IMG/VR virus record: IMGVR_UViG_3300025870_000011
Span: 1-64,000 of that record
Direction: 5' to 3' (one strand)
DNA length: 64,000 nt
Origin: a virus
Shown: positions 2 through 39,952 of the stretch, one piece after another
How positions within the stretch are numbered: the stretch's first letter is position 1
How the letters are laid out: each line of letters starts with the position of its first letter
Program-made: the position numbers and the translations under genes
Notes under the pieces: generated by a model
What the model was told of the DNA's origin: nothing
The model's database searches: none
Seen by the model: the letters and a program-made list of their open reading frames with translations, nothing else

Positions 2-148
2 ATTATTCTCTCGATCATTGCATTCGTTGCAGGTTTTTTGGCAACGTGGCTTGCTACTAATGATCTTGGGAGTAATGTGGTAATTTTTACAAGTGAAGAG
101 GAACTTCAAGAATTGTGTTGGGATGGTTTAAGGAAGGGAGAGCCATGA
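2..148 (+). CDS. C-terminal end of a membrane protein (partial)
   Basis: An open frame enters from the left edge and stops at the TGA at 146-148, overlapping the next start as ATGA. The 48 visible residues begin with a hydrophobic stretch (IILSIIAFVAGFLATWLA) that would form one membrane helix, followed by an acidic tail. The tight ATGA coupling to the next gene supports it being real. Its function cannot be told from this fragment. Confidence 0.55.
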   Translation: MILSIIAFVAGFLATWLATNDLGSNVVIFTSEEELQELCWDGLRKGEP

Positions 149-363
149 CTGTTTTTAATCGATCTTGGGCTTTGATGAAGGAAGATATACCTCCTGAGTG
201 GAATAGGGGCTTTGATGAATACAAAGGTGCTGATTACGCACGACGAGATTACTGTGCATCGTGCGATCAATTTTTTGGCGCACCTCTTGACCTTAAGATT
301 ACTGAGGGCGACGAAACGCTTTGGTTTTGTTCACAATACTGCTTGAGGCATTGGTTACGATGA
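145..363 (+). CDS. Tagged small zinc-binding protein
   Basis: A 72-residue protein starting at ATG 145 behind a strong GGAAGGGAG ribosome site. It opens with the shared leader MTVFNRSWALMK, the form of the cassette tag that is nearly identical in the next gene. After the leader come CASC near residue 38 and FCSQYC near the C-terminus, a four-cysteine arrangement that would bind one zinc ion (treble-clef or MYM-like finger). It overlaps its downstream neighbour by four bases (ATGA), so the two are probably translationally coupled. The specific role is unknown. A longer upstream start is possible but would hide the tag and lacks a ribosome site. Confidence 0.75.
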   Translation: MTVFNRSWALMKEDIPPEWNRGFDEYKGADYARRDYCASCDQFFGAPLDLKITEGDETLWFCSQYCLRHWLR

Positions 364-383
364 CTGTTTTTAATCGATCTTGG
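145..383 (+). repeat. 24-bp direct repeat encoding the tag (two copies)
   Basis: Positions 145-168 and 360-383 are identical over 24 bases and encode the first eight residues of two adjacent genes whose remainders differ. The identity is at DNA level, beyond what protein conservation requires. Confidence 0.85.
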
Positions 384-812
384 ACTTTAATGAAAAGCGA
401 TATTGTTCGTTCTTCAATGGAACGAGTTCTTACACCCGAAGAGATTCAAGATATTGCTCAATACAATTACGATGTGACAAGAGGCAACCCAATGGTTTGG
501 GATTATGATATGACGGCAATGTTTCCAAGAGAATGCCGTAGTTGCCCCAACACCATTACTGATTTTGTTACAGGGATTCCAACAGATAATGAGCATGGCA
601 TATGTAGCGTTTGTATGAATCCGTCAATAGATGAGAAGAACGAAGAATCTATGATGGCAGAGGGATTTTTTGGATTATCACCAGATGATTTTAAGGAACA
701 TCTCGAAGGCGTTAAGCGTGGCAAAGAGATTGATGAATCGTCTGTTGATTTTGGCGATATAGGATCTCTCAATCAGAAACGTTTCCGTGATCAGATGGAG
801 GGGTATGAATGA
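360..812 (+). CDS. Tagged protein with zinc-ribbon-like cysteines
   Basis: A 150-residue protein starting at ATG 360, inside the stop of the preceding gene. The leader MTVFNRSWTLMK matches the preceding gene, including identical codons. Two cysteine pairs (CRSC near residue 58 and CSVC near residue 81) suggest a zinc ribbon. The C-terminal half is acidic and predicted helical, ending in EGYE. It ends in an ATGA overlap with the next tagged gene. No catalytic motif is visible, so the function is unassigned; a DNA- or protein-binding virion accessory is possible. Confidence 0.75.
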   Translation: MTVFNRSWTLMKSDIVRSSMERVLTPEEIQDIAQYNYDVTRGNPMVWDYDMTAMFPRECRSCPNTITDFVTGIPTDNEHGICSVCMNPSIDEKNEESMMAEGFFGLSPDDFKEHLEGVKRGKEIDESSVDFGDIGSLNQKRFRDQMEGYE

Positions 813-1135
813 CCGCCTTCGACCGAACATGGGATGTGCTCAAGTTAATGATGCCTCAAAAATTGGAACAAGAGCCAATTGTTGATATTTCATTTGATAC
901 AGGAGAGGATGAATGTTGTTCTCAATTTAGACCTGCTTTGGAGAGATGGTTTAGGAAAGGTATGACTTGTGATGAATTGTATAATGAAGTGACCGAATGT
1001 GTTGAAATGATTGAACGCAATCAAAGGCAAAGAAAACCGATGCCGAACCATGATTGGGTTAAGGTTGTTCCCGAAATATACCGTCAATGGAATGAGTGCA
1101 AAGAAAATAATAATCCGTTTGGGGGGATGGAATGA
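809..1135 (+). CDS. Tagged hypothetical protein
   Basis: A 108-residue protein with the leader MTAFDRTWDVLKLMMP. The remainder is helical and charged, with scattered cysteines (ECCSQF, MTCDEL, TECVEM, NECKEN) that do not form an obvious zinc motif. ATGA overlaps on both sides place it firmly in the translationally coupled cassette. I do not recognise the fold. Confidence 0.72.
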   Translation: MTAFDRTWDVLKLMMPQKLEQEPIVDISFDTGEDECCSQFRPALERWFRKGMTCDELYNEVTECVEMIERNQRQRKPMPNHDWVKVVPEIYRQWNECKENNNPFGGME

Positions 1136-1986
1136 CCGCCTTTGCTCAAACTTGGGATCTGGTAAAAGAGTGGACTCCTAACTGGCGTGAAACTGCCAGG
1201 AAACTGCCTAAATTAGACTGGCATCAGATCAGTCGCGGATATAACAACCGTGAGAATGGTGATTTCGATTTGCTTCCCAGTTATCTTGGATCGGGTGGAT
1301 CCTTTGATGCTTTTTACCACCCCTATGATGACAAATTTGCCATAAAATTACCACGAAAAAATAGTGAATCGTGGAGTGAGAGTGATGCCGATAATGGGGA
1401 AAGAATTATGAATTGGAGAATGGGTAAGCCGACAGGACGTGAGATCCAGGTTGGGCAACCTCTTCCTTCGATTTTAGAAAGTTATGGTTATCCGATTGCA
1501 TCAGAACTGAATGTCGATAACAGGTATATGGTTCAGCCTTACATTGAGCCTTCAACATATGCTCAGGCGACGAGAAGGAATCGAAAGAATAAGAGGCCAA
1601 ATGATGACGTAACAAATCGTTTGTTGCATCACACTTTTGGTGATCGATACCCCTCGAACTTTGGTATTGATCAGACGGGCAATTACCGATTTATAGATCC
1701 AGATATGGATTACAAAGCCACATATGATTGGTGGCCGATTGGTGGTTATGATTACAGAGGGGCAAAGACGAAGGCAAAGACGCAAGGAGAAGTCTTACAA
1801 CAACGATTAGACGATTACGGCATACAGTTGCCAGCAAGTTCTTTGTTAAACACACTTGACAAGTATGGATTTGAAAGAGATCATCATTCTCAATTGTTTG
1901 ATTTATTGACGGCGATAGAACCTTATTCAGATAACCCTCAAAGTGTTTTGATTGATGGCAAGGCCGAATTTTTGGAGGGCTACTGA
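1132..1986 (+). CDS. Tagged kinase-like protein (protein kinase/phosphotransferase fold)
   Basis: A 284-residue protein with the leader MTAFAQTWDLVKEWTP. Residues about 50-75 read LGSGGSFDAFYHPYDD then KFAIKLPRK, which looks like the glycine-rich loop and ATP-binding lysine of a kinase fold. Around residue 168, GDRYPSNFGIDQTGNYRFID resembles the catalytic D-x4-N and the following metal-binding D of aminoglycoside phosphotransferase/protein-kinase-like enzymes. The family is inferred from these motifs and their spacing. The gene at 2432 is a paralogue with the same motifs and the same C-terminal signature (PYSDNP, then DGK and EGY). A phosphotransferase acting on a host protein or small molecule is plausible, but the substrate is unknown. 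Confidence 0.65.
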   Translation: MTAFAQTWDLVKEWTPNWRETARKLPKLDWHQISRGYNNRENGDFDLLPSYLGSGGSFDAFYHPYDDKFAIKLPRKNSESWSESDADNGERIMNWRMGKPTGREIQVGQPLPSILESYGYPIASELNVDNRYMVQPYIEPSTYAQATRRNRKNKRPNDDVTNRLLHHTFGDRYPSNFGIDQTGNYRFIDPDMDYKATYDWWPIGGYDYRGAKTKAKTQGEVLQQRLDDYGIQLPASSLLNTLDKYGFERDHHSQLFDLLTAIEPYSDNPQSVLIDGKAEFLEGY

Positions 1987-2435
1987 TGGTTTTCGATAAA
2001 GCATGGGAACTCATGAAGGCGTACCGTGAACCCTCTTTATGGCATGGAACACTTTCTGAAAATGCTACGAAAATTTTAGAAGAGGGGTTTGAACCCTGGA
2101 CTTTTGGTGCTTTAGAAAGAGAAGAGGCTGAAAGATACGCTGAAGATCGATGGGATGATAGTCGGGATTCTGGACCTGCGGTATTAGGTTTTGATGTTCC
2201 AGAAGGAATGGATATGATTGATCCTCGAACAGAAGGTTATGATTTTGGCTCAGACTATGGGCATTACATTGTGAAACCTCCAATTCCTCCTAAATACATA
2301 CGCCCCTATGCAATAGGACATAACAAAATGACATATCAAGAATGGAGTGATTTTCTTAGAATGTTGCGTATATCGGATAGACTTGATTCGTTTTACTCAG
2401 AACTTGATGACGAGGCTTGGAGGCGAGGGCAATGA
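1986..2435 (+). CDS. Tagged ADP-ribosyltransferase-like protein (possible)
   Basis: A 149-residue protein with the leader MVFDKAWELMK. Immediately afterwards, LWHGTLSENATKILEEGFEP resembles the histidine-containing first strand and helix (H-G-T, then ILEEGF) of the ADP-ribosyltransferase/RNA 2'-phosphotransferase fold. EEAERYAEDRW fits the following helix, with a later hydrophobic strand (VLGFDVP). The catalytic glutamate is not securely placed, so activity is uncertain. The start overlaps the preceding stop by one base and the end overlaps the next gene as ATGA. If it is a transferase, the closest functional precedent is the virion-packaged Alt protein of phage T4, which ADP-ribosylates host targets; this is an analogy, not homology. 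Confidence 0.62.
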   Translation: MVFDKAWELMKAYREPSLWHGTLSENATKILEEGFEPWTFGALEREEAERYAEDRWDDSRDSGPAVLGFDVPEGMDMIDPRTEGYDFGSDYGHYIVKPPIPPKYIRPYAIGHNKMTYQEWSDFLRMLRISDRLDSFYSELDDEAWRRGQ

Positions 2436-3223
2436 GTTCCTTTGATGCTGCTTGGGATTCCATCGCAAAAGAATGGACTCCTGGTTGGCGTTATCGGGCT
2501 GCGGCTTTGCCGACTCTTGGCAAAAAAGATTTGTTGGGAATGTTTAATGACCAACCGTTTGAAAAAATTAAAGACTACGGGCAAGGTCAAACAATGCACT
2601 GGGTTCTCCCCCATCCAAACAATGACAACTTCATGGTAAAAGTTCCACGATCTATCTTTGCGGATATATCGGGTTTTGAACGCCCAATGTATGAACCTGA
2701 GTTTGATCCAGCAGAACGTTTTGGAACTGATTGGAGAGGGAAGAATCTAATTCAAGAGATGGAGGATTTAGGATTCCCTGTTGCTTCCGAACAGATGGCT
2801 GGCGATGGTTATTTGGTTCAGCCCCGACTTGAGATAGATCATCCCGATTTCGGCAAGAATTGGAAAGGAAGACCACGAAAAGGGGTGGCTGATATGTTGT
2901 TAGAACACGCAATTTCAGATCGTGGCAGTTCAAATTGGGGCATTGATCAAACAGGGAATTGGAGAATGCTTGATGTTGATTTAGGTTTGAGCGATCCAAG
3001 TGATTATTGGCCGAGTAGTGCAGAAAACATCGGTGAAACACTTCAACAAGGGTTAGACAAATGGGGAATACAGTTGCCAGCAAACAGGTTGTTGAACTTT
3101 ATGAGCAACATTGATCATAATAGCAAATCTCTTCAACATTACCTTGAAACAATTGAGCCATATTCGGACAATCCAGATAAAGTTGAAGTTGATGGCAAAA
3201 GCCCCTGGTCGGAGGGATATTGA
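2432..3223 (+). CDS. Tagged kinase-like protein, paralogue of the gene at 1132
   Basis: A 263-residue protein starting at ATG 2432 inside the previous stop. The leader MSSFDAAWDSIAKEWTP closely follows that of the 1132 gene. A strand pair ending in FMVKVPR supplies the putative ATP-binding lysine. Around residue 164, DRGSSNWGIDQTGNWRMLDV gives the D-x4-N and final aspartate of a kinase-like active site. The glycine-rich loop (GQGQTMHWVLP) is less typical. The C-terminal signature PYSDNP/DGK/EGY matches its paralogue. Two diverged copies flanking an unrelated gene suggest duplication followed by specialisation. Confidence 0.65.
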   Translation: MSSFDAAWDSIAKEWTPGWRYRAAALPTLGKKDLLGMFNDQPFEKIKDYGQGQTMHWVLPHPNNDNFMVKVPRSIFADISGFERPMYEPEFDPAERFGTDWRGKNLIQEMEDLGFPVASEQMAGDGYLVQPRLEIDHPDFGKNWKGRPRKGVADMLLEHAISDRGSSNWGIDQTGNWRMLDVDLGLSDPSDYWPSSAENIGETLQQGLDKWGIQLPANRLLNFMSNIDHNSKSLQHYLETIEPYSDNPDKVEVDGKSPWSEGY

Positions 3224-3224
3224 T

Positions 3225-4094
3225 ATGATTAGGATTTTTGAAGTTGGACCACGTGATGGGCTACAAAACCTGCCGCACGTTCCATCGACAGAAGATAAAA
3301 TTGAACTCATTAGGCTGCTACGTGATGCTGGCCTTACTCGAATAGAGGTTGCCTCATTCGTTCATCCAAAGGCAGTTCCTAACATGGCCGATGCAAAAGA
3401 TGTGTGTGATGCCTTCGATGACAAAACTGGATTCTCTGTTCTCATCCCAAACCAGCGTGGCCTTGATCGGGCAAGGGAATGTGGGATGACGCAATTCAAC
3501 ATTTTCTTTTCACCCATGAATTCATTCAACCTTGCGAACTATGGTTTAACACAGGAACAGATAATCGCCAACTATGAAACATCGCTGAAAGGGATCCCAA
3601 GAGATTGTATTCGAGTGTATATTTCAGAAGCGTTTGAAGCAACGATTGATGAATTAGCAAAAGCGGTCAAAGAAGGTTTGAAGTTTGGAGATCGGATTGT
3701 TTTGTGTGATACCAAAGGAACTGCTGATCCGTTTCAAATCGCAGTATCTGTACGGGCAACTCGTTATTTGACAGAATTCATATCTCTACATTTACATCAA
3801 GGAAAACATCTGATGGATAACGTTTCAACAGGATATGAACTTGGTGTTCGAGAATTCGATGCGAGCATAGGTGGATTAGGTGGTTGCCCGTTTGTTCAAG
3901 GATCTGGTGCTAACCTCGCAACTGAGGATTTGGTCAAGTGGTGTAATCAACAGGGCATTTCCTGTGGAGTAAAGTTGTCCGATCTCAAAGCGGCTCGCAA
4001 GTTAGCGCACAAGATCAAGAGTCCAACGATTAGGATTGCGGTTAAAAACAAATACAACGAAACAAAGAATAGATTCAAGGCGGTGTGGTTTTGA
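3225..4094 (+). CDS. Hydroxymethylglutaryl-CoA lyase-like protein (DRE-TIM metallolyase)
   Basis: A 289-residue protein, the normal length for HMG-CoA lyase. The family enzyme cleaves HMG-CoA to acetoacetate and acetyl-CoA in leucine catabolism and ketone metabolism. The start at ATG 3225, two bases after the upstream stop, gives the family-typical N-terminus MIRIFEVGPRDGLQN; the open frame further upstream only overlaps the neighbour. Motifs in order are GPRDGLQN (catalytic R and D), IEVASFVHP (metal-ligand E), HLHQGK (metal-binding H-x-H), and GGLGGCPF...NLATEDL with the active-site cysteine and the metal-ligand asparagine. All key residues are present; the aspartate usually after H-x-H is glutamine here. 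It is the only gene in this cassette without the shared leader, and its stop overlaps the next start (TTGA). A related lyase or carboxyltransferase activity cannot be excluded. Confidence 0.88.
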   Translation: MIRIFEVGPRDGLQNLPHVPSTEDKIELIRLLRDAGLTRIEVASFVHPKAVPNMADAKDVCDAFDDKTGFSVLIPNQRGLDRARECGMTQFNIFFSPMNSFNLANYGLTQEQIIANYETSLKGIPRDCIRVYISEAFEATIDELAKAVKEGLKFGDRIVLCDTKGTADPFQIAVSVRATRYLTEFISLHLHQGKHLMDNVSTGYELGVREFDASIGGLGGCPFVQGSGANLATEDLVKWCNQQGISCGVKLSDLKAARKLAHKIKSPTIRIAVKNKYNETKNRFKAVWF

Positions 4095-4789
4095 CGGCCT
4101 TCGACACCGCTTGGTCTTTGCTCAAAATGCCGTTTGTAGATCGTGGGCTTACTGCAACTCGTCTATATCAAGGTCGAAGAAGGGGAGAAGAAGATACAGG
4201 CTATTGGACTCCACATAAAGACAAGGCAGTTGCATACGCACTTTTTGGTCCAAGATATGATTACGACGACGAACCTTTTGTTGATTCAAAAGTTGATATT
4301 CCTGAAGTTTGGCAAGTTGATGCACCAAAAGAACACATTCCTTTGCCTCTTGATATGGATTACGTCGGTTTGGGTGATGCTTCTGGTGCAGTTGATAGAA
4401 GGCGTGTAGCATTTGAGGACAAAGACGGAATTATTTCGTCATTCAATCCCATTCGCATTCCTGATAAAGAATTGGCGAAAATAATCGCTCAAACCTTTAT
4501 TGCAGATTATCATTCAGGTGGTCGGTTTTTACAAGGCGATTCAATACCCAAAGAAAATTTTGAAACCGCTTTTGAGATGAGGAATAGCCCTTCATCGTTT
4601 TCAAATTGGGAGGGTCTATATGTTGATGATTCCGATCCTTCAAACGAAGAACTGATGGAATCACTTTCAACTCAATATGACGACGACCCTGAAGGCGAGA
4701 TTGATTGGGATTCGCTTACAACAACGATGGGCAAGTTGAAAAGAGGACAGTTAATTGATTTCATGCACAACTTGGAGGCTTACGAATGA
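4091..4789 (+). CDS. Tagged possible ADP-ribosyltransferase-like protein
   Basis: A 232-residue protein. The start is chosen at TTG 4091, which overlaps the lyase stop as TTGA and yields exactly the consensus leader MTAFDTAWSLLKMPFV; a GTG at 4085 would add two residues. After the leader, TRLYQGRRRGEEDTGYWTPH followed by DKAVAYALFG resembles the Y-x-G strand and downstream helix of small ADP-ribosyltransferase-like or RES-like proteins. The rest is acidic and helical with no secure catalytic residues. The assignment is tentative; presence of a real gene is secure from coupling and the leader. Confidence 0.68.
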   Translation: MTAFDTAWSLLKMPFVDRGLTATRLYQGRRRGEEDTGYWTPHKDKAVAYALFGPRYDYDDEPFVDSKVDIPEVWQVDAPKEHIPLPLDMDYVGLGDASGAVDRRRVAFEDKDGIISSFNPIRIPDKELAKIIAQTFIADYHSGGRFLQGDSIPKENFETAFEMRNSPSSFSNWEGLYVDDSDPSNEELMESLSTQYDDDPEGEIDWDSLTTTMGKLKRGQLIDFMHNLEAYE

Positions 4790-5109
4790 CGGCATTTGAC
4801 ACGGCTTGGCGATTGATGAAGTCTATTGACGATGATTCCAATGACGATGAGTTCATTGACAATTCTCAATTCAATAATCCAGTTGCCGCAAAGGTTGATG
4901 AAATAATGGATATATTCGGCGGCTCATCTCCACTGGAATGTTATTCATGTGGATTAGAAGGTCCAACTTCAACATTCGTGGGGTGGCATGGTGGGCGTGG
5001 GCGAAAATGTCCCGAATGTGGGTCTTATGAGGTTCACAAATACGATCCATCCATACCTGTTAATCCAGAATGGCTCGAAGACCAAAAAAAGAAGGACAAA
5101 CAACCCTAA
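4786..5109 (+). CDS. Tagged zinc-ribbon protein
   Basis: A 107-residue protein with the leader MTAFDTAWRLMKSIDDD. An acidic linker is followed by CYSCGLEGPTS and then CPECGSYEV, two CxxC knuckles about 20 residues apart, as in a rubredoxin-type zinc ribbon. The tail is lysine-rich. It is coupled to the upstream gene by ATGA and is the last gene before the intergenic region at 5110-5410, so it probably ends a transcription unit. Nucleic-acid or protein binding is the likely role. Confidence 0.75.
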   Translation: MTAFDTAWRLMKSIDDDSNDDEFIDNSQFNNPVAAKVDEIMDIFGGSSPLECYSCGLEGPTSTFVGWHGGRGRKCPECGSYEVHKYDPSIPVNPEWLEDQKKKDKQP

Positions 5110-5154
5110 CAGGGCTGAGAAGGTTTAATTTATAACCTCAACCTCGCAGTTAAT

Positions 5155-5289
5155 GTGCAAGAGGCTTTGCTCAAGCGAAGGCAACGTTTGTTTCGTATGC
5201 TCATGAAGCATGGATTGACCAATTATAGATCTGGAATTAGACCAGAATTGGAATCCGTCGAATCATGTGGTTTTAGTTATCAACGTTGA
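5155..5289 (+). CDS. Possible small basic protein (GTG start)
   Basis: A 44-codon frame begins at GTG 5155 and ends at TGA 5287-5289. The N-terminal half is basic and helical (QEALLKRRQRLFRMLMKHGL) and the rest is polar. There is no convincing ribosome site and the stop falls in a palindrome that may be a terminator, so this may be chance or part of an untranslated RNA. Confidence 0.22.
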   Translation: MQEALLKRRQRLFRMLMKHGLTNYRSGIRPELESVESCGFSYQR

Positions 5290-5306
5290 TCTACGTGTTT
5301 TTTTTT
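5279..5306 (+). terminator. Palindrome plus T9 run
   Basis: The perfect 12-bp palindrome ATCAACGTTGAT (5279-5290) is followed after seven bases by nine thymines (5298-5306). Poly-T after a possible stem fits transcription termination downstream of the tagged gene ending at 5109. Confidence 0.4.
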
Positions 5307-5340
5307 GAGGGGATCGGGCTACGCTCGAAACCATGCTTAA

Positions 5341-5368
5341 TTAGAGAAATCTCGCTAAATTTTTTTTT
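5341..5368 (+). terminator. Hairpin plus T9 run
   Basis: TTAGAGA (5341-5347) can pair with TCTCGCTAA (5350-5358) with a single A-G mismatch, followed directly by AA and nine thymines (5360-5368). This is the best intrinsic-terminator-like structure in the window and lies 40 bases before the next gene. Confidence 0.5.
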
Positions 5369-5410
5369 CCGTTGGAATGGCTTTATGTTTTGATGCGACT
5401 TGCGTAATTT

Positions 5411-5890
5411 ATGCCTAAGCCATTTGACACCGCTTGGGACTTGCTCAAAATGCCTATTGTTCCCCGTTCTCTTGTTCAAGACAAAAACGACAAAAGCAAG
5501 TATAGTGCTTCATTTAGAGATCCAAAAACAAATGAAATAATCCCTATGGAAATTGGTTTGGGAACGGGATGGTCTTATTCTAAAATTAAACACCCTAATG
5601 AAGAATGGCCTCGTTCTGAAACATCAATGACGAATTGGGGGTTTGACGGCTTGGGGAACAGTTATCAGGCCGACCAAACAAATACTCAATTGGAATATAG
5701 TAGAAGAGGATATGCAACCGCTTTGTATAACATTTTGGCGCACCTTTTGAAAGACAAGAGATACAAGGGTGTAATACGCGCAAGCGATGAACAAGCCGAA
5801 GATGGGCGAAGTTTTTGGCAAAATGCAAGGGCGACGGGAAAAACAAGTAAATACGGTTCATGGAGGGATGATTTGTATGACCGCCTTTGA
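5411..5890 (+). CDS. Tagged GNAT-like acetyltransferase (copy 1 of 3)
   Basis: A 159-residue protein with the leader MPKPFDTAWDLLKMPIVP. A beta-rich first half (YSASFRDPKTNEIIPMEIGL) leads to SRRGYATALYNILAHLL near residue 97, matching motif A of GNAT N-acetyltransferases (R-x-x-G-x-A for acetyl-CoA pyrophosphate binding). ASDEQAEDGRSFWQ near residue 125 matches the conserved C-terminal helix of the fold. It is the first of three tandem paralogues, all tagged. The stop overlaps the next gene by 14 bases. The substrate is unknown; protein or small-molecule acetylation is the family norm. Confidence 0.72.
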   Translation: MPKPFDTAWDLLKMPIVPRSLVQDKNDKSKYSASFRDPKTNEIIPMEIGLGTGWSYSKIKHPNEEWPRSETSMTNWGFDGLGNSYQADQTNTQLEYSRRGYATALYNILAHLLKDKRYKGVIRASDEQAEDGRSFWQNARATGKTSKYGSWRDDLYDRL

Positions 5891-6347
5891 TCAAGCGTGG
5901 GCGTTATTGAAAATGCCAATACAACCATACACCATAAGAGAGGTTGATGCCCCAGATTTTGAAAGTGTGTATCATGCCGATTTTTATGATCCCGAAAGTG
6001 ATGAAACATTACCAATGGAAGTTGGTATATCGGGTGAGTATAACTCAATTGAAGGCTTAATCCGAGATTCTAACCAAAATAAACCAAATAGAACAAGAGC
6101 ATTTGCTCGCTATGACGAGGGAGATCAAAGGGTTATGAACATGAAAGATGTTGAAACTTCTGAACCGTTCCGAAGAAGGGGGTATGCTTCTGGCTTGTAT
6201 GATTTGATGGCTTATGCCTTATCTCAAAGAAAAAAACCATACAGATTAGAACCTGATACAAGCCAATCACAAGAAGCGCATGAAATGTGGAATGCCAAAG
6301 CACCAAGCGGCCATTGGCCTCCAGAAAGAGCATGGAGGGATGCGTAG
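5877..6347 (+). CDS. Tagged GNAT-like acetyltransferase (copy 2 of 3)
   Basis: A 156-residue protein starting at ATG 5877, overlapping the previous gene; longer upstream starts would read through the neighbour and bury the tag. The leader is MTAFDQAWALLKMPIQ. YHADFYDPESDETLPMEVGI is the beta-hairpin seen in copy 1, and RRRGYASGLYDLMAYAL near residue 101 is the acetyl-CoA-binding motif A. DTSQSQEAHEMWN near residue 130 is the terminal helix. It ends at TAG, overlapping the following GTG start by one base. Confidence 0.72.
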   Translation: MTAFDQAWALLKMPIQPYTIREVDAPDFESVYHADFYDPESDETLPMEVGISGEYNSIEGLIRDSNQNKPNRTRAFARYDEGDQRVMNMKDVETSEPFRRRGYASGLYDLMAYALSQRKKPYRLEPDTSQSQEAHEMWNAKAPSGHWPPERAWRDA

Positions 6348-6865
6348 TGACCGCCTTCGACACCGCTTGGGCTATTGTGAAGATGCCTATTGTTCCTAAC
6401 CAGTTAGAATATCTCGGTGAAAGCCCCAACTTGGGCGGCGAAGATTCCTTTTTTACGGAAACAAAAAGGTGGAAAACAATGTTTCAAGATCCTAAAACGC
6501 AAGAATTGCTTCCCTTGTTTGTTGATTATGGGAATTATTTGAATCGAGAAGGTAAGAAATATCAATCGTTCAAAGGCTCAATCGGTGATGATAAACGGGG
6601 TGGAAGATTGCGGTATGAGGGTGATGATAGACGATCTATAACGGGAGTCAATTTTCACGATAATGTTGAAAGTCGCCACCCTTATTGGACTGAAACAAGA
6701 AAAGATCATAGAGAGAAAGGTTATGCTTCCGCTTTGTATGATGTGATTGCTTATTTGATGCAAAATGAAGGGGAATATGCGTTAAACCCTTCACATGAAC
6801 AAAAAGCGGCTGCAAAAGAAATGTGGAAAGGGCGAGAAAAATGGCCTGTGAGGGATGACCTATGA
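6347..6865 (+). CDS. Tagged GNAT-like acetyltransferase (copy 3 of 3)
   Basis: A 172-residue protein. GTG 6347 is chosen because it overlaps the previous stop and gives the leader VTAFDTAWAIVKMPIVP. The body repeats the layout of copies 1 and 2: MFQDPKTQELLPLFVDYG, then EKGYASALYDVIAYLM (motif A, here K instead of R before the glycine) and a terminal helix with HEQKAAAKEMW. An insertion of about 30 residues before motif A makes it the longest copy. It ends in ATGA overlap with the next gene. Confidence 0.7.
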   Translation: MTAFDTAWAIVKMPIVPNQLEYLGESPNLGGEDSFFTETKRWKTMFQDPKTQELLPLFVDYGNYLNREGKKYQSFKGSIGDDKRGGRLRYEGDDRRSITGVNFHDNVESRHPYWTETRKDHREKGYASALYDVIAYLMQNEGEYALNPSHEQKAAAKEMWKGREKWPVRDDL

Positions 6866-7485
6866 GTGCCTTCGACACCGCTTGGGAATTGTTAAAAATG
6901 CCAGCCGCAGATCGAAGATACACGCTTACAGAAGATGACATTAAGCGCATATCACAACTCGCATCTGAGGGCATGAGTCAAGCAGCAATTTATAGATTGT
7001 TCAACGAAGAAGGAATTCCAGTAACAAGAGGGATCGTTCACTATTGGGCAAACGAAGCCTCTCGAATGAAGCAACGTGAGAAGAATGCGCTTCGACGGTA
7101 TGAACCAGGATCAGAAGAGAATGCGAGAAGGATTGTACGTGATCAAGAAAAGCGTAGAGAAAATTGGGAAGCAGATCCTGATATGAAAGAACGACATGAA
7201 CTTCAATCAACAAAGGATGAAACCCGATCAACAAGACACACGTTTAGAGGAAAACCAGTTGAAGAAGCCATGAAGCGACTTGAAAGTGGTGAATTGAGGC
7301 GACCTAATGCTAAGGTTTCAGAAGAAGATCTAAACAAAGCCATGTCGGGTCGATTCCCTGCGCGTTATCCAGGCAACTGTGTTGTTTGCCAACGATCTAT
7401 CTCACCAGGAGAAGAAGTCAGATACAATCGACTATTGGGTGGTATTTCCTGTCCGTTTGATTGCGGGAGGAATTACATTGTCTGA
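6862..7485 (+). CDS. Tagged helix-turn-helix protein with C-terminal zinc knuckle
   Basis: A 207-residue protein with the leader MSAFDTAWELLKMPAA. Residues about 22-57 (LTEDDIKRISQLASEGMSQ, then AAIYRLFNEEGIPVTRGIVH) have the pattern of a resolvase- or transposase-type helix-turn-helix in which the recognition helix follows GIPVTRG. A long, highly charged helical middle follows. The C-terminus has CVVCQRSI and CPFDCG, consistent with one zinc site. DNA binding is likely, either viral-genome packing or transcription control after delivery; which is not clear. Confidence 0.68.
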   Translation: MSAFDTAWELLKMPAADRRYTLTEDDIKRISQLASEGMSQAAIYRLFNEEGIPVTRGIVHYWANEASRMKQREKNALRRYEPGSEENARRIVRDQEKRRENWEADPDMKERHELQSTKDETRSTRHTFRGKPVEEAMKRLESGELRRPNAKVSEEDLNKAMSGRFPARYPGNCVVCQRSISPGEEVRYNRLLGGISCPFDCGRNYIV

Positions 7486-8338
7486 TGTGTTTGAACAGGC
7501 ATGGGATTCTATCGTCAAGATCGATGAGGGGATGTGGGAAGAGATCTATGCCCCTCTCTTGGCTGAAACTGCGGGTATGGGCAAAAAACAGTATGCGCGC
7601 CATACTGTTGATTTTGTTCCTACATCCTTTGCTATGGATGTTATGCGAAACAGATCATGGAATCAAGACTTGATGGATGATGATTGGGAAGAATTGATTT
7701 TGGATAGCAATAATCACGGAACTGGTGATACTGGCTTTACAATGGATGAATTGATGGAGAGTATAATGGATCGAGGTTTTACGATGGAGGGGGCGAACAG
7801 ACATGGGAGAATAGATCCTTCTTTTGAGGTGAACCCGCATGGATTGGATATGTATGAAGGAAATCACCGACTTCTTGCTTTGAATGCTTTAGGTGCGCCC
7901 CATGTTCCTTTCATGGGTCGTGGAGTGAAGGGAACAAAGGCTAACAATGCACCACACAAAATGCCTCTTTCACAAGAAGCATTGAACCTTTGGGGAAAGC
8001 GTGAAAATTATTCCCTTGCTGATTACATGACAGGAGGTTCACCTCAAATACCCCCTTCTTGGCTTTATGGTCGTGAAATGGTTCCCGGTATGGGTCGCCT
8101 TGAGCCTGTGAACAGGTTGGGTGAACCTATTGATATGTTCACGCACATAAGCGAAACAGATTCTAATATGGATTCTTTAGAAGCCTTTCATGCTCGAAAT
8201 AAACGTGAGCCAGTAAATCCATTCGATCCAAAATCAGTCAGTCGTAATCAACAACTGTTACAAAGCGAAAACTTTCGTAACAAGGCCAAATGGAATTGGA
8301 AGCAAAAACCTTCTTGGAAAGTAGTGTTTGATGATTGA
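7478..8338 (+). CDS. Tagged ParB/Srx-like domain protein
   Basis: A 286-residue protein. The TTG at 7478 has a GGGAGG site seven bases upstream and gives the leader LSDVFEQAWDSIVK; a longer frame exists but overlaps the previous gene. Near residue 122, GLDMYEGNHRLLALNALGAP matches the G-x-H-R motif of ParB/sulfiredoxin-fold proteins, which bind or hydrolyse nucleotides and in ParB act on DNA. FEVNPHG precedes it as the expected strand. The C-terminal third is polar, rich in W, and ends in WKVVFDD. In phages such domains occur as ParB-like nucleases beside methyltransferases, which fits the next genes. Confidence 0.68.
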   Translation: MSDVFEQAWDSIVKIDEGMWEEIYAPLLAETAGMGKKQYARHTVDFVPTSFAMDVMRNRSWNQDLMDDDWEELILDSNNHGTGDTGFTMDELMESIMDRGFTMEGANRHGRIDPSFEVNPHGLDMYEGNHRLLALNALGAPHVPFMGRGVKGTKANNAPHKMPLSQEALNLWGKRENYSLADYMTGGSPQIPPSWLYGREMVPGMGRLEPVNRLGEPIDMFTHISETDSNMDSLEAFHARNKREPVNPFDPKSVSRNQQLLQSENFRNKAKWNWKQKPSWKVVFDD

Positions 8339-8341
8339 AGG

Positions 8342-8434
8342 TGACGAGCAAGTATTGTTCAGATCGCCCAAAATCCAAACGTGCGTTGTTCGAGAGTAAC
8401 TACGTGATAAACAGGAGTCGCTACTTGCTCGCCA
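8342..8434 (+). ncRNA. Structured intergenic RNA or terminator with long stem
   Basis: Arms 8342-8354 and 8422-8434 form a 13-bp stem with one G-T or A-C mismatch; ten pairs (8345-8354 with 8422-8431) are perfect. The enclosed 67 bases include a second small stem (ACGT at 8381-8384 with ACGT at 8402-8405, and GTT/AAC). The element sits between two tagged genes. It does not fit a tRNA cloverleaf. A short U-run (8435-8438) and a longer T tract follow, so it could be a terminator or a small RNA. Confidence 0.4.
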
Positions 8435-8449
8435 GTTTTGGAAATGTAT

Positions 8450-8463
8450 TTTTATAATTAAAG
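8450..8463 (+). promoter_or_regulatory. TATA-like promoter element
   Basis: TTTTATAATTAAAG lies about 60 bases before the start of the methyltransferase gene, just after the stem-loop. Its composition fits an archaeal TATA box or a phage AT-rich promoter, and it follows a putative terminator. No experimental or consensus support is available. Confidence 0.3.
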
Positions 8464-8522
8464 TCTCTCTATACACTTACTGATTAAGATAAGTTCTTGA
8501 CTGATAGTACAATCCGTCATGC

Positions 8523-9848
8523 ATGGGCGAGGCTTTATTTCAGGAAGCCTACTCGACTATGATTGAGAAGATGACCCCTAAAGATCTAAAAGTGATGGAT
8601 GAAGAATATCTACGCAGATTTCCGCAAATGCCACTTCGAGATGATTTTGGCGCAATCACGCAGTATTCAGGTGGAGGGTTTGCCGATGAAGGTTTCCGAT
8701 CAGCAGGAATCCCGATCTTATCAACTATTGACGCATGGAAACCTGCAAACGATGTCAGATTATTAAATCAAAAAGAAGGTGAAGTCCTAAGTGGTTATCT
8801 TGGCAGAGATCAAGGCCAAAGACATCCAGATGATATGGTTGAGCATTACGCCGACATCTCACAAGGAAAAAAGATTCACTTTCACGCATCGCCTCCGTGT
8901 CAAGCATTCACAAGAGCGCAACGACAAGGAACGAGTGTTGCGGCTAAAACACCCGAAGAAATGGAAGAAGATAGAGTCGCTGCTATGCCTTTGATTGGGG
9001 ATGCTCTCTACACAGTAGAACAGATGATAAAACACCCTGATATAGACTTGGCATCATGGTCACTTGAAGAAGCACCAGATGTTGCTAAATATCTAAAAGA
9101 AAATCCACATTTTCTCGATAAATATGTCTCCCCTCCCTTTAAGAAAAAGGTAATGGGACTATTGACGAATCATCCAAAATTAGATGCAATTGACTTTGGC
9201 GCACCTACTACAAGAGGTCGAACATTTATCGGTGAAGGATGGAATGCAGAACCTACGCATTACAATTCAACTTACAAACCAAAACCAGGTAGGCTACCTA
9301 ACCCTTCTGTGCTTGATTTTTTGCCACATCTTCAACGAGAAGAAGAAGAGAACAAGCCAAATAAATTAGCAAAATTGACTGATTATAGAGATAAAGGTCG
9401 AATCAGTCAAGAAGTTCTTGATCACCTCATGGCTCAAGGTTACATTTCACAATCGGGTGGCATCAATCCAGGTAAAGGGGGTGCTTCTTGGCGTAACATA
9501 AATTCAAAGCATCCAAGTCAAGAAGGCGGTCCTGGAACGGCTTTCCTACACAGAAAACCACTCACTTCATCTGTAACTGGAATTACACATAACAAACCAT
9601 CGCATATGTATAATCGGTATTTGACCCCTCAAGAAATCATGATGCTTCAAGGTGGGCGACCTACTTACGATCTATCACCAGCAGAAGGACAGTATTGGCG
9701 TAAAACTAATCCACGATCAGGCAACGTAAAATCAATTGCTGCTGTTGATCAAATAATTGGTAATGCAGTTGCCCCTCCAGTAGCAAGAGCAATAGGCAGA
9801 TCAGTAGTAGGTAACAACCTCCAACGCAGGTTGATGGATTATAATTGA
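8523..9848 (+). CDS. Tagged C5-cytosine DNA methyltransferase
   Basis: A 441-residue protein; the N-terminus (GEALFQEAYSTMIEKM) carries a divergent form of the leader, with Y for W. Motif I is YSGGGFADEGFRSAGI near residue 42 (SAM binding). The catalytic motif is SPPCQAF near residue 122, with the nucleophilic cysteine. EEAPDV near residue 181 occupies motif VI (usually ENV, degenerate here). TTRGRTFIG near residue 230 fits motif VIII. QEIMMLQGGRP is motif IX and IIGNAVAPPVARAIG is motif X. The order is that of 5-methylcytosine enzymes. It would methylate the viral or host genome. It is followed by a Gp88-like gene and an adenine methyltransferase, both tagged. Confidence 0.85.
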   Translation: MGEALFQEAYSTMIEKMTPKDLKVMDEEYLRRFPQMPLRDDFGAITQYSGGGFADEGFRSAGIPILSTIDAWKPANDVRLLNQKEGEVLSGYLGRDQGQRHPDDMVEHYADISQGKKIHFHASPPCQAFTRAQRQGTSVAAKTPEEMEEDRVAAMPLIGDALYTVEQMIKHPDIDLASWSLEEAPDVAKYLKENPHFLDKYVSPPFKKKVMGLLTNHPKLDAIDFGAPTTRGRTFIGEGWNAEPTHYNSTYKPKPGRLPNPSVLDFLPHLQREEEENKPNKLAKLTDYRDKGRISQEVLDHLMAQGYISQSGGINPGKGGASWRNINSKHPSQEGGPGTAFLHRKPLTSSVTGITHNKPSHMYNRYLTPQEIMMLQGGRPTYDLSPAEGQYWRKTNPRSGNVKSIAAVDQIIGNAVAPPVARAIGRSVVGNNLQRRLMDYN

Positions 9849-9857
9849 GGTGATCGC

Positions 9858-10859
9858 ATGAATTGTTTTGAAACGGTTTGGGATTTCATCAAAGCAATTC
9901 CAGAAATTGATCTCGATGATTTTACGCTCGATCAGGTGGTAAATACAGATTATGTATTTCCAAAAGGCGGCCAAATTATGAGGCACATGAAAACCCCTCA
10001 AGGAAAAAAAGAAATGGCGATGATGCAAGCAAGGAACATTGATTATCCATTAGAAGGGATAGATCTTCCTAAATATCAACCTAAAAACGCATGGAATTTG
10101 CATGAGGAACTAAGACCTTTGCTTGGTGGTTCAGCAGTTCAAGGAAAGCGATGGGATTTTCTCTCTTCACCAGGAAAAATGATAAATAGAACTTTTTCAT
10201 TACCAACTCATATGTGTAATGTTGGGGGGAAACTACGAGAAGTTCCAGGTTCAGTTTGTGAACATTGTTATGCACACGGAAGTAATTATAATTACAATGC
10301 AGTTCAACAAAAATTGCTTCGTAACTACAACGCTTTGACCAGTAGCGATCCTGTCGAATGGGCATCAGCCGTTGCAGGTGCAATTCCTGGTGAAACAACG
10401 AGATTTCCAATGTTCAGATTCCATGATTCAGGAGATTTGCATTCTGCATCACACGCTTCAATGATTGCGGATATTTCTTCTAATAATCCAGATGTAATGA
10501 ATTGGCTTCCAACAAGAGAATGGGAAATGATTGCCGATTTAGTTCGAGCAAGAGGGGGAGATCTCCCTCCTAATTTTGTTCCACGTATATCTTTGCCAAT
10601 GGTAAATCAAACGCTTGATAATGACGAAAATGAACGAAGAGGTGTTGATTCATTACCTCAAGAGTTGATTGATTTGATACAGGATAACCCTCAAGTAGAT
10701 TATTCAACTGTTATTACAAAACCAGAATATCGCAGTAGCCGTTCATCTGTTTTATGTCCTGCTTCAAATCCAATAGTCGGAGGTAATACCTGTGCTGATA
10801 ACAAATGTAGTGCTTGCTATAATCCAAAAGTCAAAGCAACGGAGTATTTCAAACATTGA
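9858..10859 (+). CDS. Tagged Gp88-like cysteine-rich phage protein
   Basis: A 333-residue protein with a GAGGTGATC ribosome site and the leader MNCFETVWDFIKAIPE. Mid-protein cysteines (MCNVGG, then VCEHCYAHG), the motif RFHDSGDLHSASH near residue 188, NWLPTREWEM after it, and a final CPAS...CADNKCSACYNP cluster match the layout of the phage gene product 88 family (C-x-x-CYA, R-x-HxSGD, W/TRSW, C-terminal Cys cluster). Family members have no firmly established function; the cysteines suggest a metal or iron-sulfur centre. It lies between two DNA methyltransferase genes. Confidence 0.68.
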   Translation: MNCFETVWDFIKAIPEIDLDDFTLDQVVNTDYVFPKGGQIMRHMKTPQGKKEMAMMQARNIDYPLEGIDLPKYQPKNAWNLHEELRPLLGGSAVQGKRWDFLSSPGKMINRTFSLPTHMCNVGGKLREVPGSVCEHCYAHGSNYNYNAVQQKLLRNYNALTSSDPVEWASAVAGAIPGETTRFPMFRFHDSGDLHSASHASMIADISSNNPDVMNWLPTREWEMIADLVRARGGDLPPNFVPRISLPMVNQTLDNDENERRGVDSLPQELIDLIQDNPQVDYSTVITKPEYRSSRSSVLCPASNPIVGGNTCADNKCSACYNPKVKATEYFKH

Positions 10860-10868
10860 GGCAATACT

Positions 10869-13133
10869 ATGAGCGAAATTTTTGAGAAGGCTTGGTATGA
10901 TCAGTTCAAGCGCAATAAGCGTGATCGGCCTGAGATGGGTACGGTTTCTCTTGATGGCGTTACGGCATATCCTCTCGAAGATAGATCAGGTAATCTCAAT
11001 TTAGACCGAATGACCAATTTTCGAGTGGGCAGACCACACAACATAGAGGCATTCCGTAACATCGACTCTACGAGTTTGCATTTAAATCCCGGTCGTATAA
11101 AATCTACTGGGGAAATCAGACCAAATACTGGCGCATTAAGCGTTATGAGAGGTCAAAAACCAATAGCGATTTCCAACGTATTGCCAATCAATAATCCTTT
11201 CTTTAGATTAGATGAAAAGGCGCAACGTTCAGCATTTCTTGGCAATCCTGAACGGGATCGAAAAGCAAATCGAACTGCCCATATGTGGACGGCAGGAGAT
11301 CTGAGTGCGGCAGAATTGAATGCGATGATGGGTGGGACACAAACACCTCAACAAATTCTTGGCATGACTGATGATTTGGTTTTAGATCGAAACGACTTTG
11401 GCGACAGTATGTTATCATGGAAGTATGGTGATGATCTGTACGAAGCCCCTCGTTTTGCATATGAGGTTTATGATCTGGAAGATAAGTCATTGCCACACAA
11501 TAAAAAATGGAAAATGGAAAATCGAAAATACCGTGATGATTTTGCTTTGCCATTCCGTTCCGCACGTGGTCACAGAGTATCTGGTTCAGTAGATCCATTG
11601 CTCAGAATACCGCTACACTTCGCTGGTCAGCAAGCACCTGAACTCGCACGTCAAAGCAAAGGAGGCCGATATGTTGAATGGGAACATCCAGAAACGGGCT
11701 ATCGCTATGAAGGCGTTCCTGTTCCATTGAGTTTGACTGGTGATTATGATCAACCTGCGGTTTCGAGAGGTATTTCAACTGGAACGCATGGATTGTATTT
11801 TGATCCACGTGATTTGACGGGCGCAGGAAGAGAGGTTTGGGATTCCGCTTTATCAGGCGATGTTATTCGCAGAGCGTTAGAGAGCATACAAATACGAGAT
11901 GAAATGAGTCTTGAAAAGATGCCGCATCCATCTTCGGGGGATTTCAGCCGAAGGCAAGCATTACCAACTGCGTTTCGACTTCAAGGGGTCAAAAACAATA
12001 CTATGTATTCTCAAATAATGGCAGCATTACGTGAAACGCTTGGTGATCGTGAAATGATTGAAACGTTTGGCGGTGGTGGAGGACTCTCATTGGGGTTTAA
12101 GCCATCAAAAGCAATCATTAACGACATAAACCCCGACATAGGAAACCTGATGCGAAGAATCATCCGAGAACCAATGAAAATAGACCCGGAACAATACAAT
12201 GTGGGCGTTGGCGAACCAATCACAATCCCTCATCCATCATTAGGTCAAATGAACATTGGAACAATGACGGAAGAGATGAAGAATCGTTTTGGTGAAGGCA
12301 ACAGAACCTTTATTCCAGCACATTTTTACAATCTTCGCAATCAATACGCTGGATTAAGGGAAAAGGCTGCAAGTGGAACTGCAACTCCCGAAGAACACGA
12401 CAAAATGGCTGAAATCTTCTATATGCTTCAATTGACTGGCTTCAACAGTTTGGTTCGATACGGCAAAGGAAAAGAATTGCCTTCATGGGATAATCCATAT
12501 TCAACTCCACCAGGAACTACACGTTCAAAGCACCATATCCCCGAAGATGAAGAATTAGCAGGTTCGTTTTTCCAACAAATGAAGGATGCTGGACTTTACG
12601 ACGCTGAAAAAGACCGATACAAAGGCCGTATTCAACCAGGGGGCAACGCTTTCCGACCAACTCCAATTCGAGGGGGAATCGGAGAACACGATTTCGCACC
12701 CTGGCATGATGCTATGAAAGACTGGGATTGGAGGACTGGAAATGCTTTTGAGTTCTATGATGACATCAAAGACCAAATGAAAGCCGACAAGAACCTATTG
12801 ACATTTGACCCGCCTTACTTTGGTGAAGAGGGCGCACATGGTTTCTTTGGAAAAGATGAGCAAGAACGGCTTATTCAACAAATGATTGATGCAAAGGACA
12901 GGGGCATTCCGACTATGGTTTTCAATTCAATGCATCCTTCAATTGTTGAACCGTTGCGTGAGGCTGGATTCCACATTGAACCATTAGATCGAAAAGACCT
13001 TTCAAGTTCCGATCCAAACTCAAGAGGAACGGTTGGAGAACTTATGGCTATGGCGAACATTGATCAAGACGCATTCCAAACAGCATGGGAGAGGCGTAAG
13101 AATCCCCCACCAGCGCAACGCACTTTGTTCTAA
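10869..13133 (+). CDS. Tagged D12-class adenine DNA methyltransferase with large N-terminal domain and PIP-like tail
   Basis: A 754-residue protein with the leader MSEIFEKAWYDQFKRN. Residues about 20-370 are an unrecognised domain. From about 375 the D12 (Dam-like) N6-adenine methyltransferase begins: GVKNNTMYSQIMAAL, then ETFGGGGGLSLGF (SAM-binding motif I, near residue 397) and LTFDPPYFGEEG (catalytic DPPY near residue 646), in the alpha-class order. The C-terminus has a second tag-like segment DAFQTAWERRK (residues 734-744) and ends in AQRTLF, which resembles a terminal PCNA-interacting peptide (Q-x-T-L-F). The length is about 2.5 times a stand-alone Dam enzyme. Genome modification on entry or during replication is likely. 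Confidence 0.82.
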   Translation: MSEIFEKAWYDQFKRNKRDRPEMGTVSLDGVTAYPLEDRSGNLNLDRMTNFRVGRPHNIEAFRNIDSTSLHLNPGRIKSTGEIRPNTGALSVMRGQKPIAISNVLPINNPFFRLDEKAQRSAFLGNPERDRKANRTAHMWTAGDLSAAELNAMMGGTQTPQQILGMTDDLVLDRNDFGDSMLSWKYGDDLYEAPRFAYEVYDLEDKSLPHNKKWKMENRKYRDDFALPFRSARGHRVSGSVDPLLRIPLHFAGQQAPELARQSKGGRYVEWEHPETGYRYEGVPVPLSLTGDYDQPAVSRGISTGTHGLYFDPRDLTGAGREVWDSALSGDVIRRALESIQIRDEMSLEKMPHPSSGDFSRRQALPTAFRLQGVKNNTMYSQIMAALRETLGDREMIETFGGGGGLSLGFKPSKAIINDINPDIGNLMRRIIREPMKIDPEQYNVGVGEPITIPHPSLGQMNIGTMTEEMKNRFGEGNRTFIPAHFYNLRNQYAGLREKAASGTATPEEHDKMAEIFYMLQLTGFNSLVRYGKGKELPSWDNPYSTPPGTTRSKHHIPEDEELAGSFFQQMKDAGLYDAEKDRYKGRIQPGGNAFRPTPIRGGIGEHDFAPWHDAMKDWDWRTGNAFEFYDDIKDQMKADKNLLTFDPPYFGEEGAHGFFGKDEQERLIQQMIDAKDRGIPTMVFNSMHPSIVEPLREAGFHIEPLDRKDLSSSDPNSRGTVGELMAMANIDQDAFQTAWERRKNPPPAQRTLF

Positions 13134-18217: not shown

Positions 18218-18654
18218 AATCAGTCCGACACTTGATGCTCAAAGATATGCCTGAGCATGATTCTATTCTAAACACAAAAATTCCAAAAGATGAATGGACT
18301 GTTGAAGATTTGCTTTTTTATACAGATTCAGTTGATCAGGTTGTTAAGCGATGGGTGGAGGCTATTTCAGAACACCTTGAATATCCGAGCGAAGTGGTTT
18401 CAAACATATGGGGTTCTTTGATTATGACTCGTTTGCTAATTGATGATTTAAAAATACTAAAAACTAATCCTGGTGCTGATTGTATCTCTTTACTTGACGG
18501 AACACAGATTATCACCGATCTTAAACAAAAGATGTTGCCTATGTCAAAATCATATGCGCGTGTACCTTCATTGGCTCAATGGTACATGACCCTGCCAAAT
18601 GAAATAGATGTAGTGTATAGAGCCATACGACGGAGGTTGAAGGATGGTCAGTAG
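18214..18654 (+). CDS. Helical protein of unknown function
   Basis: A 146-residue protein overlapping the previous gene by ATGA. Its sequence is mostly helical (VEDLLFYTDSVDQVVKRW; IWGSLIMTRLLIDDLKILK) with a basic end (IRRRLKDG). No motif is recognised. Tight coupling to the Zn-HTH gene suggests a shared complex. Confidence 0.6.
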   Translation: MKSVRHLMLKDMPEHDSILNTKIPKDEWTVEDLLFYTDSVDQVVKRWVEAISEHLEYPSEVVSNIWGSLIMTRLLIDDLKILKTNPGADCISLLDGTQIITDLKQKMLPMSKSYARVPSLAQWYMTLPNEIDVVYRAIRRRLKDGQ

Positions 18655-36724: not shown

Positions 36725-36751
36725 AACTCAAAATAAATGGAGATGACTAAG

Positions 36752-39637: not shown

Positions 39638-39952
39638 ATGCCACGTCTTGAAGTCGGTGAAATTGACCTTGAAACTTCTTTAGAGATAAAGAAGAGAAGG
39701 AACACTCGTATGTTTGAAATGGCAACGAGTCAAGGATCAATTGGCGAAAAAGATTCTCCGTTCAGTAAAAAGAATATGGATCGTGCAGGTACATCTTTTG
39801 TTAAAGTTACAAAACAACAAGCACAGGACATTCAAAACATAGGCTCTGGAACACGCTGTATTGCGTGTGGGATGCTCCACTTCTGTTGGACTCCCGAATG
39901 TGCCGTATGCGGGGAAGCAATGCACTACAACTTAGGAGGACACCACCAATGA
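39638..39952 (+). CDS. Zinc-ribbon protein in head module
   Basis: A 104-residue protein; ATG 39638 follows a GAGGGGGA site. The C-terminus contains CIACGMLHFCWTPECAVCGE, a four-cysteine zinc ribbon with an additional Cys, and ends in HYNLGGHHQ. The N-terminal half is helical and charged. It overlaps the next gene as ATGA, and that gene is also zinc-binding. Confidence 0.65.
   Translation: MPRLEVGEIDLETSLEIKKRRNTRMFEMATSQGSIGEKDSPFSKKNMDRAGTSFVKVTKQQAQDIQNIGSGTRCIACGMLHFCWTPECAVCGEAMHYNLGGHHQ

Follow-up and report, generated by a model that had tools for sequence, protein, structure and literature searches.

The internal proteins of phage T4 are highly diverse and are conserved only in their capsid targeting sequence (CTS), according to the part of PMC3012670 available to us. 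In phage P1, the N-terminal 30 residues of DarB direct the protein to the capsid and are a sufficient signal, and the available portion of PMC9024508 reports no consensus among the Dar proteins. Giant phages of the SPN3US/phiKZ type carry N-terminal leaders on many inner-head proteins, for which prohead targeting has been suggested (PMC5694885, also available in part). Here we describe a tag of about 10 residues that begins many otherwise different proteins of an uncultured, magrovirus-like archaeal tailed virus. The window, meaning the whole stretch of 64,000 nucleotides that was analysed (positions 1–64,000 of IMG/VR record IMGVR_UViG_3300025870_000011), is part of a linear virus record of 69,779 bases that is probably incomplete. 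Judged from sequence, the tag is probably a head-docking helix, with the virus head as its destination.

As with the CTS of the T4 internal proteins and Alt, a short N-terminal leader stands on diverse proteins of a virus that has an HK97-type head and a prohead protease (PMC3012670 and PMC5694885, as far as these sources were available). As with DarB, the tag mostly stands at the N-terminus; the cargo of P1 includes defence-related proteins, and cleavage is not among the features given for the DarB signal (available part of PMC9024508). The T4 cargo is likewise diverse and is host-directed, but the T4 leader has been proven to package its cargo and is cleaved, whereas the present tag is a putative packaging signal. 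Our system also differs from T4 in having far more cargo families, internal and C-terminal copies of the tag, and an archaeal virus as its carrier. It differs from the P1 Dar proteins in that one consensus is common to about 170 clusters of proteins, and from the giant-phage leaders, most of which exceed 100 residues and which are cleaved, in its length. The tag would work like the T4 and P1 capsid targeting sequences, to which we liken it by description and not by leader sequence.

The consensus of the tag was M-T-A-F-[DE]-x-A-W-x-[LVI]-[LVI]-K. The sequence-only reading had claimed a shared leader in 16 genes of the window, and all 16 read open from the starts it gave, three of them (4091, 6347 and 7478) with TTG or GTG start codons. 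The pattern as first written fit 12 of the 16 genes and failed for those at 1132 (FAQTW), 9858 (FETVW), 8523 (FQEAY) and 10869 (FEKAWYDQF). A position-weight matrix built from the tags gave a score of at least 17 to 14 of the 16 genes, the weak ones being 8523 (5.3) and 10869 (3.3). The tag had been described as often followed by M-P; K-M-P followed it in 5 of the 16 genes. The proteins had also been called unrelated, which held in part: once the leader was removed they made up about 13 families, with 1132 and 2432 related to each other and 5411, 5877 and 6347 likewise.

Further copies had been overlooked. Two N-terminal tags lie on the minus strand just beyond the end of the window (66041–66475 and 66481–66831). 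Internal copies occur at 64004–64588, also beyond the window end, and in the genes at 18644..19939 and 39865..40158, the latter two being weak by the matrix, and C-terminal copies are present in relatives. The gene at 64004–64588 of the record (L009:4005–4592) follows the tail genes; in relatives the tag of this protein, placed internally in some genomes and N-terminally in others, is directly followed by KG[KR]FxGY. Beyond residue 26 there were 98 matrix matches with a score of at least 10, of which some reflected over-long gene starts and many followed linkers like xFTASxDPF. Twelve of these 98, near-copies included, ended no more than 10 residues from the C-terminus. With its internal and C-terminal copies, the tag has the look of a module and does not resemble a secretion signal.

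The motif was far more frequent than expected. Across the window's record and 32 relatives (33 contigs, some of them near-copies of one another), the motif class had 219 occurrences close to a start codon, where 20 order-shuffled motifs averaged 2.85, and 38 away from starts, where the shuffled motifs averaged 4.85. At a matrix score of at least 14 there were 292 matches, against a mean of 0.125 for eight shuffled matrices. The F and W of the tag were fixed by the motif search, and the fact that F, W and K never vary in alignments A1–A7 is partly built in, as the members were picked by motif. The search left positions 2 and 3 free, and among 310 distinct tags threonine stood at position 2 in 72% and alanine at position 3 in 81%. 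Six window tags had identities of 0.71, 0.86 and 0.51 at codon positions 1, 2 and 3, and the 21 bases upstream of the 16 starts had an identity of 0.32. Because third codon positions are the more variable and the upstream DNA is unrelated, selection acts on the peptide and not on the DNA.

Behind this common leader stood a large variety of proteins. Overlapping sources yielded 435 distinct sequences with an N-terminal tag, and after leader removal they fell into 177 BLAST clusters built from at least 45 residues of sequence, of which 110 were singletons; remote homology would merge some of these clusters, and cluster 1 was chained by single linkage. In 171 of the 177 clusters a member carried a high-scoring tag. 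A single homologous domain that includes the leader was ruled out by this clustering; cluster 124 was rejected as a chance match inside the gene at 40172. The largest cluster (30 members) was GNAT-like, with weak Pfam and PDB matches (best E in the PDB profile search, 0.12). A chained cluster of 29 showed an HExGH signature in the consensus of 16 aligned members, and a PDB profile search with this family gave no match. The profile of an ADP-ribosyltransferase (ART)-fold cluster of 26 members matched Tpt1 (1.7e-4) and DarT1 (2.1e-3), and a further conserved cluster, which includes the 4091 gene, had 23 members. The remainder included Gp88-like proteins, two methyltransferase types and many Cys-rich small proteins. 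Among 147 cluster representatives, 31 Pfam families were matched at E 0.01, mostly by one member each.

Structure models were obtained for two of the window proteins. That of the ART-fold protein at 1986 had a predicted local distance difference test (pLDDT) score of 86 and a Foldseek match to KptA/Tpt1 (1e-4), and in it the tag forms a predicted helix from residue 2 to 12. That of the kinase-like protein at 2432 had a pLDDT of 71 and weak matches to kinase folds (best E 4e-3), and its residues 1–14, with pLDDT below 50, were not confidently placed; a PDB profile search with the kinase-like family returned unrelated weak matches only. Among the family labels proposed earlier, ART-fold, Gp88-like and the two methyltransferase types were matched, the GNAT-, kinase- and helix-turn-helix (HTH)-like labels were weak, and the ParB-like label had no Pfam match.

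We examined the spread of the tag with a strict DNA pattern (ATG-Thr-Ala-Phe-Asp-x-Ala-Trp, two NTN codons, Lys). Among 2.9 million viral contigs this pattern occurred in 86 stretches on 64 contigs; in the genomes of 84,980 cellular species it had zero matches. Nineteen of the 64 contigs were already among the relatives of the window's capsid protein and 45 were newly reached. The terminase of the lineage was present in 35 of these 45, accompanied by the capsid protein in 21, and the ten with neither gene carried the replication-strand gene found at 68491–69777 (37–89% identity). The strict pattern was thus found in this lineage only. The tag itself extends to a sister group (capsid identity 62–68%, terminase 46–49%), where it keeps its genomic place. 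No tag cluster was found in HCTV-1 (50 kb of 103 kb) or in vir519 (whole record); one HCTV-1 9-mer scored 15 on the matrix, but without the tryptophan.

The tagged genes had a marked preference for one strand. In 40 contigs, the tag was carried by 357 of the 1918 genes on the strand of the capsid gene and by 13 of the 801 opposite-strand genes (Fisher 4.7e-42, a p-value that overstates the significance because genes are not independent trials). This test left out G062, whose capsid gene was not recognised, and genes shorter than 60 amino acids. Restricting the comparison to the 20 contigs that had 12 or more other-strand genes gave 173 of 1024 and 13 of 695. Of 18 mapped contigs, 16 contained a GTPase-like gene, and each of these had its main tag cluster upstream of that gene, on the strand that leads toward terminase, portal, protease, capsid and tail. 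All 29 contigs with the GTPase-like gene carried 3–22 tags, and the 12 without it carried 0–6; in the ten newly reached contigs without terminase this gene was sought and found in none. Three of the contigs without it (G017, G025 and G028) had 0–1 tags, and homologues there have degenerate tags below the cut-off. Because the GTPase-like gene is absent from them and the tags of their homologues are degenerate, these three were not counted as counter-examples. Genes that are tagged or contain a tag come after the tail genes in several relatives. At L009:6823–7686 on the minus strand (66822–67685 of the window's own record), a DUF6321 protein (1e-15) has a degenerate, tag-like start (FNDAYDQML), and relatives have tagged homologues of part of it.

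The portal protein provided a separate line of evidence. In most portals the last 100 or so residues form a basic tail, and we searched the open frames of contigs and loci with a profile of this tail. In the loci fetched by capsid protein, the tail was either fused to the portal and without a tag (49 of 49) or encoded by a separate gene and tagged (8 of 8); L028 and L045, cut by contig edges, were left out of this count, yet were entered as fused in one tree. A ninth separate tail gene, in G036, was also tagged. The loci fetched by the tag itself, a biased sample in which three contigs had already been counted, gave nine separate tails, all tagged. In G033 the tail gene encodes 170 residues with one tag; in the tag-fetched L280 its counterpart is split and both pieces start with the tag. 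The state changed between fused and separate three times on the capsid tree and twice on the portal-core tree. None of four sister-group portals matched the tail profile. For the head-module protein at 30990–31871 we noted that a domain of its homologue in G006 stands alone as a tagged gene in G012, which may be another instance of splitting and tagging.

A simple reading of these sequences is that portal fusion and the tag may be alternative ways for a chain to reach the same place. The C-termini of the P22 portal are thought to extend into the head (PMC4992974, in the part available), so that docking of proteins in the head is the most likely role of the tag. The portal-tail split is new, independent support for a destination in the head. 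The earlier proposal of capsid loading had come with findings that would speak against it, and it survived those that could be checked in sequence: the tag was not found mainly in genomes lacking the HK97-type lineage, since all 45 new tag contigs carry lineage genes; tagged genes lay mostly on the strand of the capsid gene, and an S78-type prohead protease gene is present; and with 177 clusters, no one domain including the leader explains the tagged proteins.

From these data we infer location in the head, docking, injection and an effector role. While the virion head is being assembled, a portable helix of about 10 residues would draw proteins into it, its F-A-W-L face binding one procapsid receptor, for which the portal, the protease-scaffold, the capsid protein and a core protein are candidates. 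The main cargo would be a fast-changing set, numbering about 6–22 tagged proteins in each well-covered virus, with genes that lie upstream of those for the virion; the set includes ART-fold, acetyltransferase-like, kinase-like, protease-like and DNA-methylating proteins. This cargo would enter the next cell together with the DNA and act on that cell immediately; that most of it is injected into the next host is a proposition we favour by a modest margin, with less assurance than the head destination. With slightly more confidence than for injection, we think it reasonably likely that magroviruses, which are viruses of marine archaea, run a general head-cargo system, in which one exchangeable docking helix (N-terminal, internal or C-terminal) serves some 6–22 proteins per virus from a pool of well over 100 families and in which fusion and tag are interchangeable.

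Several observations weigh against head docking. In 107 cases a homologue match lay at least 100 residues inside a longer protein, and for 82 of these neither the N-terminus nor the flank of the domain carried a tag; 39 of the 82 came from one chance cluster, 25 were portals and 18 were others, some with degenerate tags or a tag elsewhere. Homologues without a tag also exist for Gp88 and for cluster 12. Among the separate portal tails, L060/L063 and L087/L088 are near-copies, so the eight amount to about six independent sequences, and there were only two or three independent portal events. That the portal C-terminus lies in the lumen is taken from other phages and would apply here by analogy. 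The 13 other-strand tags comprise two in the window's own record and 11 in relatives, five of the 13 forming one stretch of G012. Lastly, 36 of 386 tagged genes exceed 500 amino acids, a size that makes passage through the tail harder.

Some of these points would suit a tag that binds one host or viral protein in the infected cell (a polymerase, the ribosome, a protease or a replication site), with nothing packaged. Many of the cargo families are enzymes or small Cys-rich proteins able to act in the cell, and a few tags do lie on the other strand; we consider such a hub unlikely nonetheless, as the strand bias runs against it and it gives no reason for the exchange with portal fusion. A place in the virion other than the head interior, with docking at the neck, the tail or the outer face of the portal and release at adsorption, seemed less probable still. 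The portal is also part of the neck, and tagged or tag-containing genes come after the tail genes in several relatives, but the piece that is exchanged is the C-terminal tail of the portal, thought to lie inside the head in P22 (available part of PMC4992974), and its basic character would suit contact with DNA.

The remaining two explanations we regard as very improbable, to a similar degree. The hydrophobic F, W and L on one face would be expected of an amphipathic helix anchored at the inner face of the host membrane; the tag has only about 10 residues, however, with D and K conserved, it occurs internally and C-terminally, and it precedes the separated portal tails. Alternatively, the tag could be a cassette at gene starts, a DNA or translation-start element spread by recombination and having no role in the protein. 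Most copies are indeed at the start, and Met-Thr-Ala is common there at the frequencies given above. Against a cassette stand the greater variability of third codon positions, the unrelated upstream DNA, and the internal and C-terminal copies, which require no start.

The designation of the virus as magrovirus-like rests on strand layout, an HMG-CoA lyase gene and capsid kinship. Viral contigs contained 137 relatives of the window's capsid protein, and 80 of these were retained; in a phage collection the protein matched 11 records, eight of which were haloarchaeal tailed viruses (about 30% identity). HCTV-1 belongs to Druskaviridae, to which the capsid protein of Magrovirales is related. The ICTV texts on Magrovirales (two families) describe virion and replication genes in opposite directions and a genome of 90–110 kb; our largest relatives measured 96–111 kb and likewise had opposed virion and replication modules. 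An HMG-CoA lyase gene has been reported from magroviruses (PMC10160649, available in part). Because the opposed strands, the HMG-CoA lyase-like gene and the haloarchaeal capsid kinship fit the ICTV texts, we use the label, and this virus and Magrovirales thus have in common two modules on opposite strands, an HMG-CoA lyase gene and a capsid protein akin to that of Druskaviridae. Family B DNA polymerase (PF00136) was matched in 8 of the 35 records searched, most of which are fragments, and had no match in the window's own record.

The two ICTV profiles, and PMC10160649 in the portions available, make no mention of such a tag. We found no printed account of it in the literature on magroviruses and archaeal capsid targeting, of which the core magrovirus papers were covered only in part. 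If the proposal is right, archaeal viruses would use a targeting code of a kind that has not been described for them, and the tag would offer a very short peptide with which cargo could be put into an HK97-type shell. The system would also indicate a way in which enzymes may be delivered when an archaeal virus enters its host, a subject on which data are scarce. Any tagged protein from a marine metagenome could then be read as virion cargo, and hundreds of proteins that lack annotation, from ocean viruses with uncultured hosts, would gain an address label. To our knowledge, this would be the widest set of virion-delivered enzymes. The portal-tail swap makes the head-cargo idea directly testable with a few expressed genes.

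The first tagged gene of the window, on the plus strand like all tagged genes below, encodes a small Cys-rich protein at 145..363 (MTVFNRSWALMK), for which no Pfam family was above the cut-off. It is followed by a Cys-containing protein at 360..812 (MTVFNRSWTLMK), a further tagged protein at 809..1135 (MTAFDRTWDVLK) and a kinase-like protein at 1132..1986 (MTAFAQTWDLVK) that is related to the kinase-like protein at 2432..3223 (MSSFDAAWDSIAK; alignment A7). Between these two lies the ART-fold protein at 1986..2435 (MVFDKAWELMK). The HMG-CoA lyase-like gene at 3201–4094 (PF00682, 3.5e-24) is untagged within the cluster. It is followed by the member of the conserved family of 23 at 4091..4789 (MTAFDTAWSLLKMP) and a small Cys-rich protein at 4786..5109 (MTAFDTAWRLMK). 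Positions 5110–5410 form a gap of about 300 bases without a credible gene in the otherwise packed cluster. The GNAT-like protein at 5877..6347 (MTAFDQAWALLKMP; Acetyltransf_CG at 9.7e-4, below the Pfam cut-off) is flanked by two tagged proteins of the GNAT-like cluster, at 5411..5890 (MPKPFDTAWDLLKMP) and 6347..6865 (VTAFDTAWAIVKMP). The tagged protein at 6862..7485 (MSAFDTAWELLKMP) has a possible HTH region (HTH_7, 0.096, weak), and the one at 7478..8338 (LSDVFEQAWDSIVK) is that which had been called ParB-like. The last three genes encode a cytosine DNA methylase-like protein at 8523..9848 (PF00145, 7.8e-7) with the weak tag FQEAYSTMIEK, a Gp88-like protein at 9858..10859 (PF17338, 7.7e-23) with the tag variant FETVWDFIK (matrix 22.5), and a D12-class adenine methyltransferase-like protein at 10869..13133 (PF02086, 2.2e-9) with the weak N-terminal tag FEKAWYDQFK. 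This last protein also has a tag-like stretch, FQTAWERRK, near its C-terminus.

The virion genes follow. Upstream of the terminase, a conserved protein at 17507–18217 matched the hemerythrin HHE domain at the cut-off (2.4e-5). A basic protein at 18644..19939 (plus strand), also upstream of the terminase, has the internal tag variant FNFTWDSISK at residue 155 (pattern match); it was found in 21 of 32 relatives, some of which have higher-scoring copies of the tag. The lineage marker, the terminase large subunit, lies at 25299..26735 on the plus strand (phrog_38, 1.6e-75). The proteins at 26728–28107 and 21852–22835, otherwise different, both contain a sequence similar to GKFxDVATFGxTxxxGKTGxxGR, which may be one more short motif common to different proteins. 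The portal at 28100..29899 (plus strand; phrog_18178, 1.8e-58) carries a fused, untagged basic tail from about residue 497, by the tail profile. A head-module protein of 1146 amino acids at 31883–35323 was present in 32 of 32 relatives and had no Pfam match; on visual inspection, the C-terminal region of this protein looks like the domain of an ATP-dependent ligase. The prohead protease at 35366..36724 (plus strand; PF04586, 5.6e-10, residues 29–183) has a long C-terminal region that is a possible scaffold and candidate receptor, and the major capsid protein, the other lineage marker, follows at 36737..37921 on the same strand (phrog_24667, 1.4e-43). A Cys-rich head-module protein at 39865..40158 (plus strand) contains the internal tag variant FQKSWEDIIK at residue 43 (pattern match; matrix 7.7), and relatives carry better copies of the tag.

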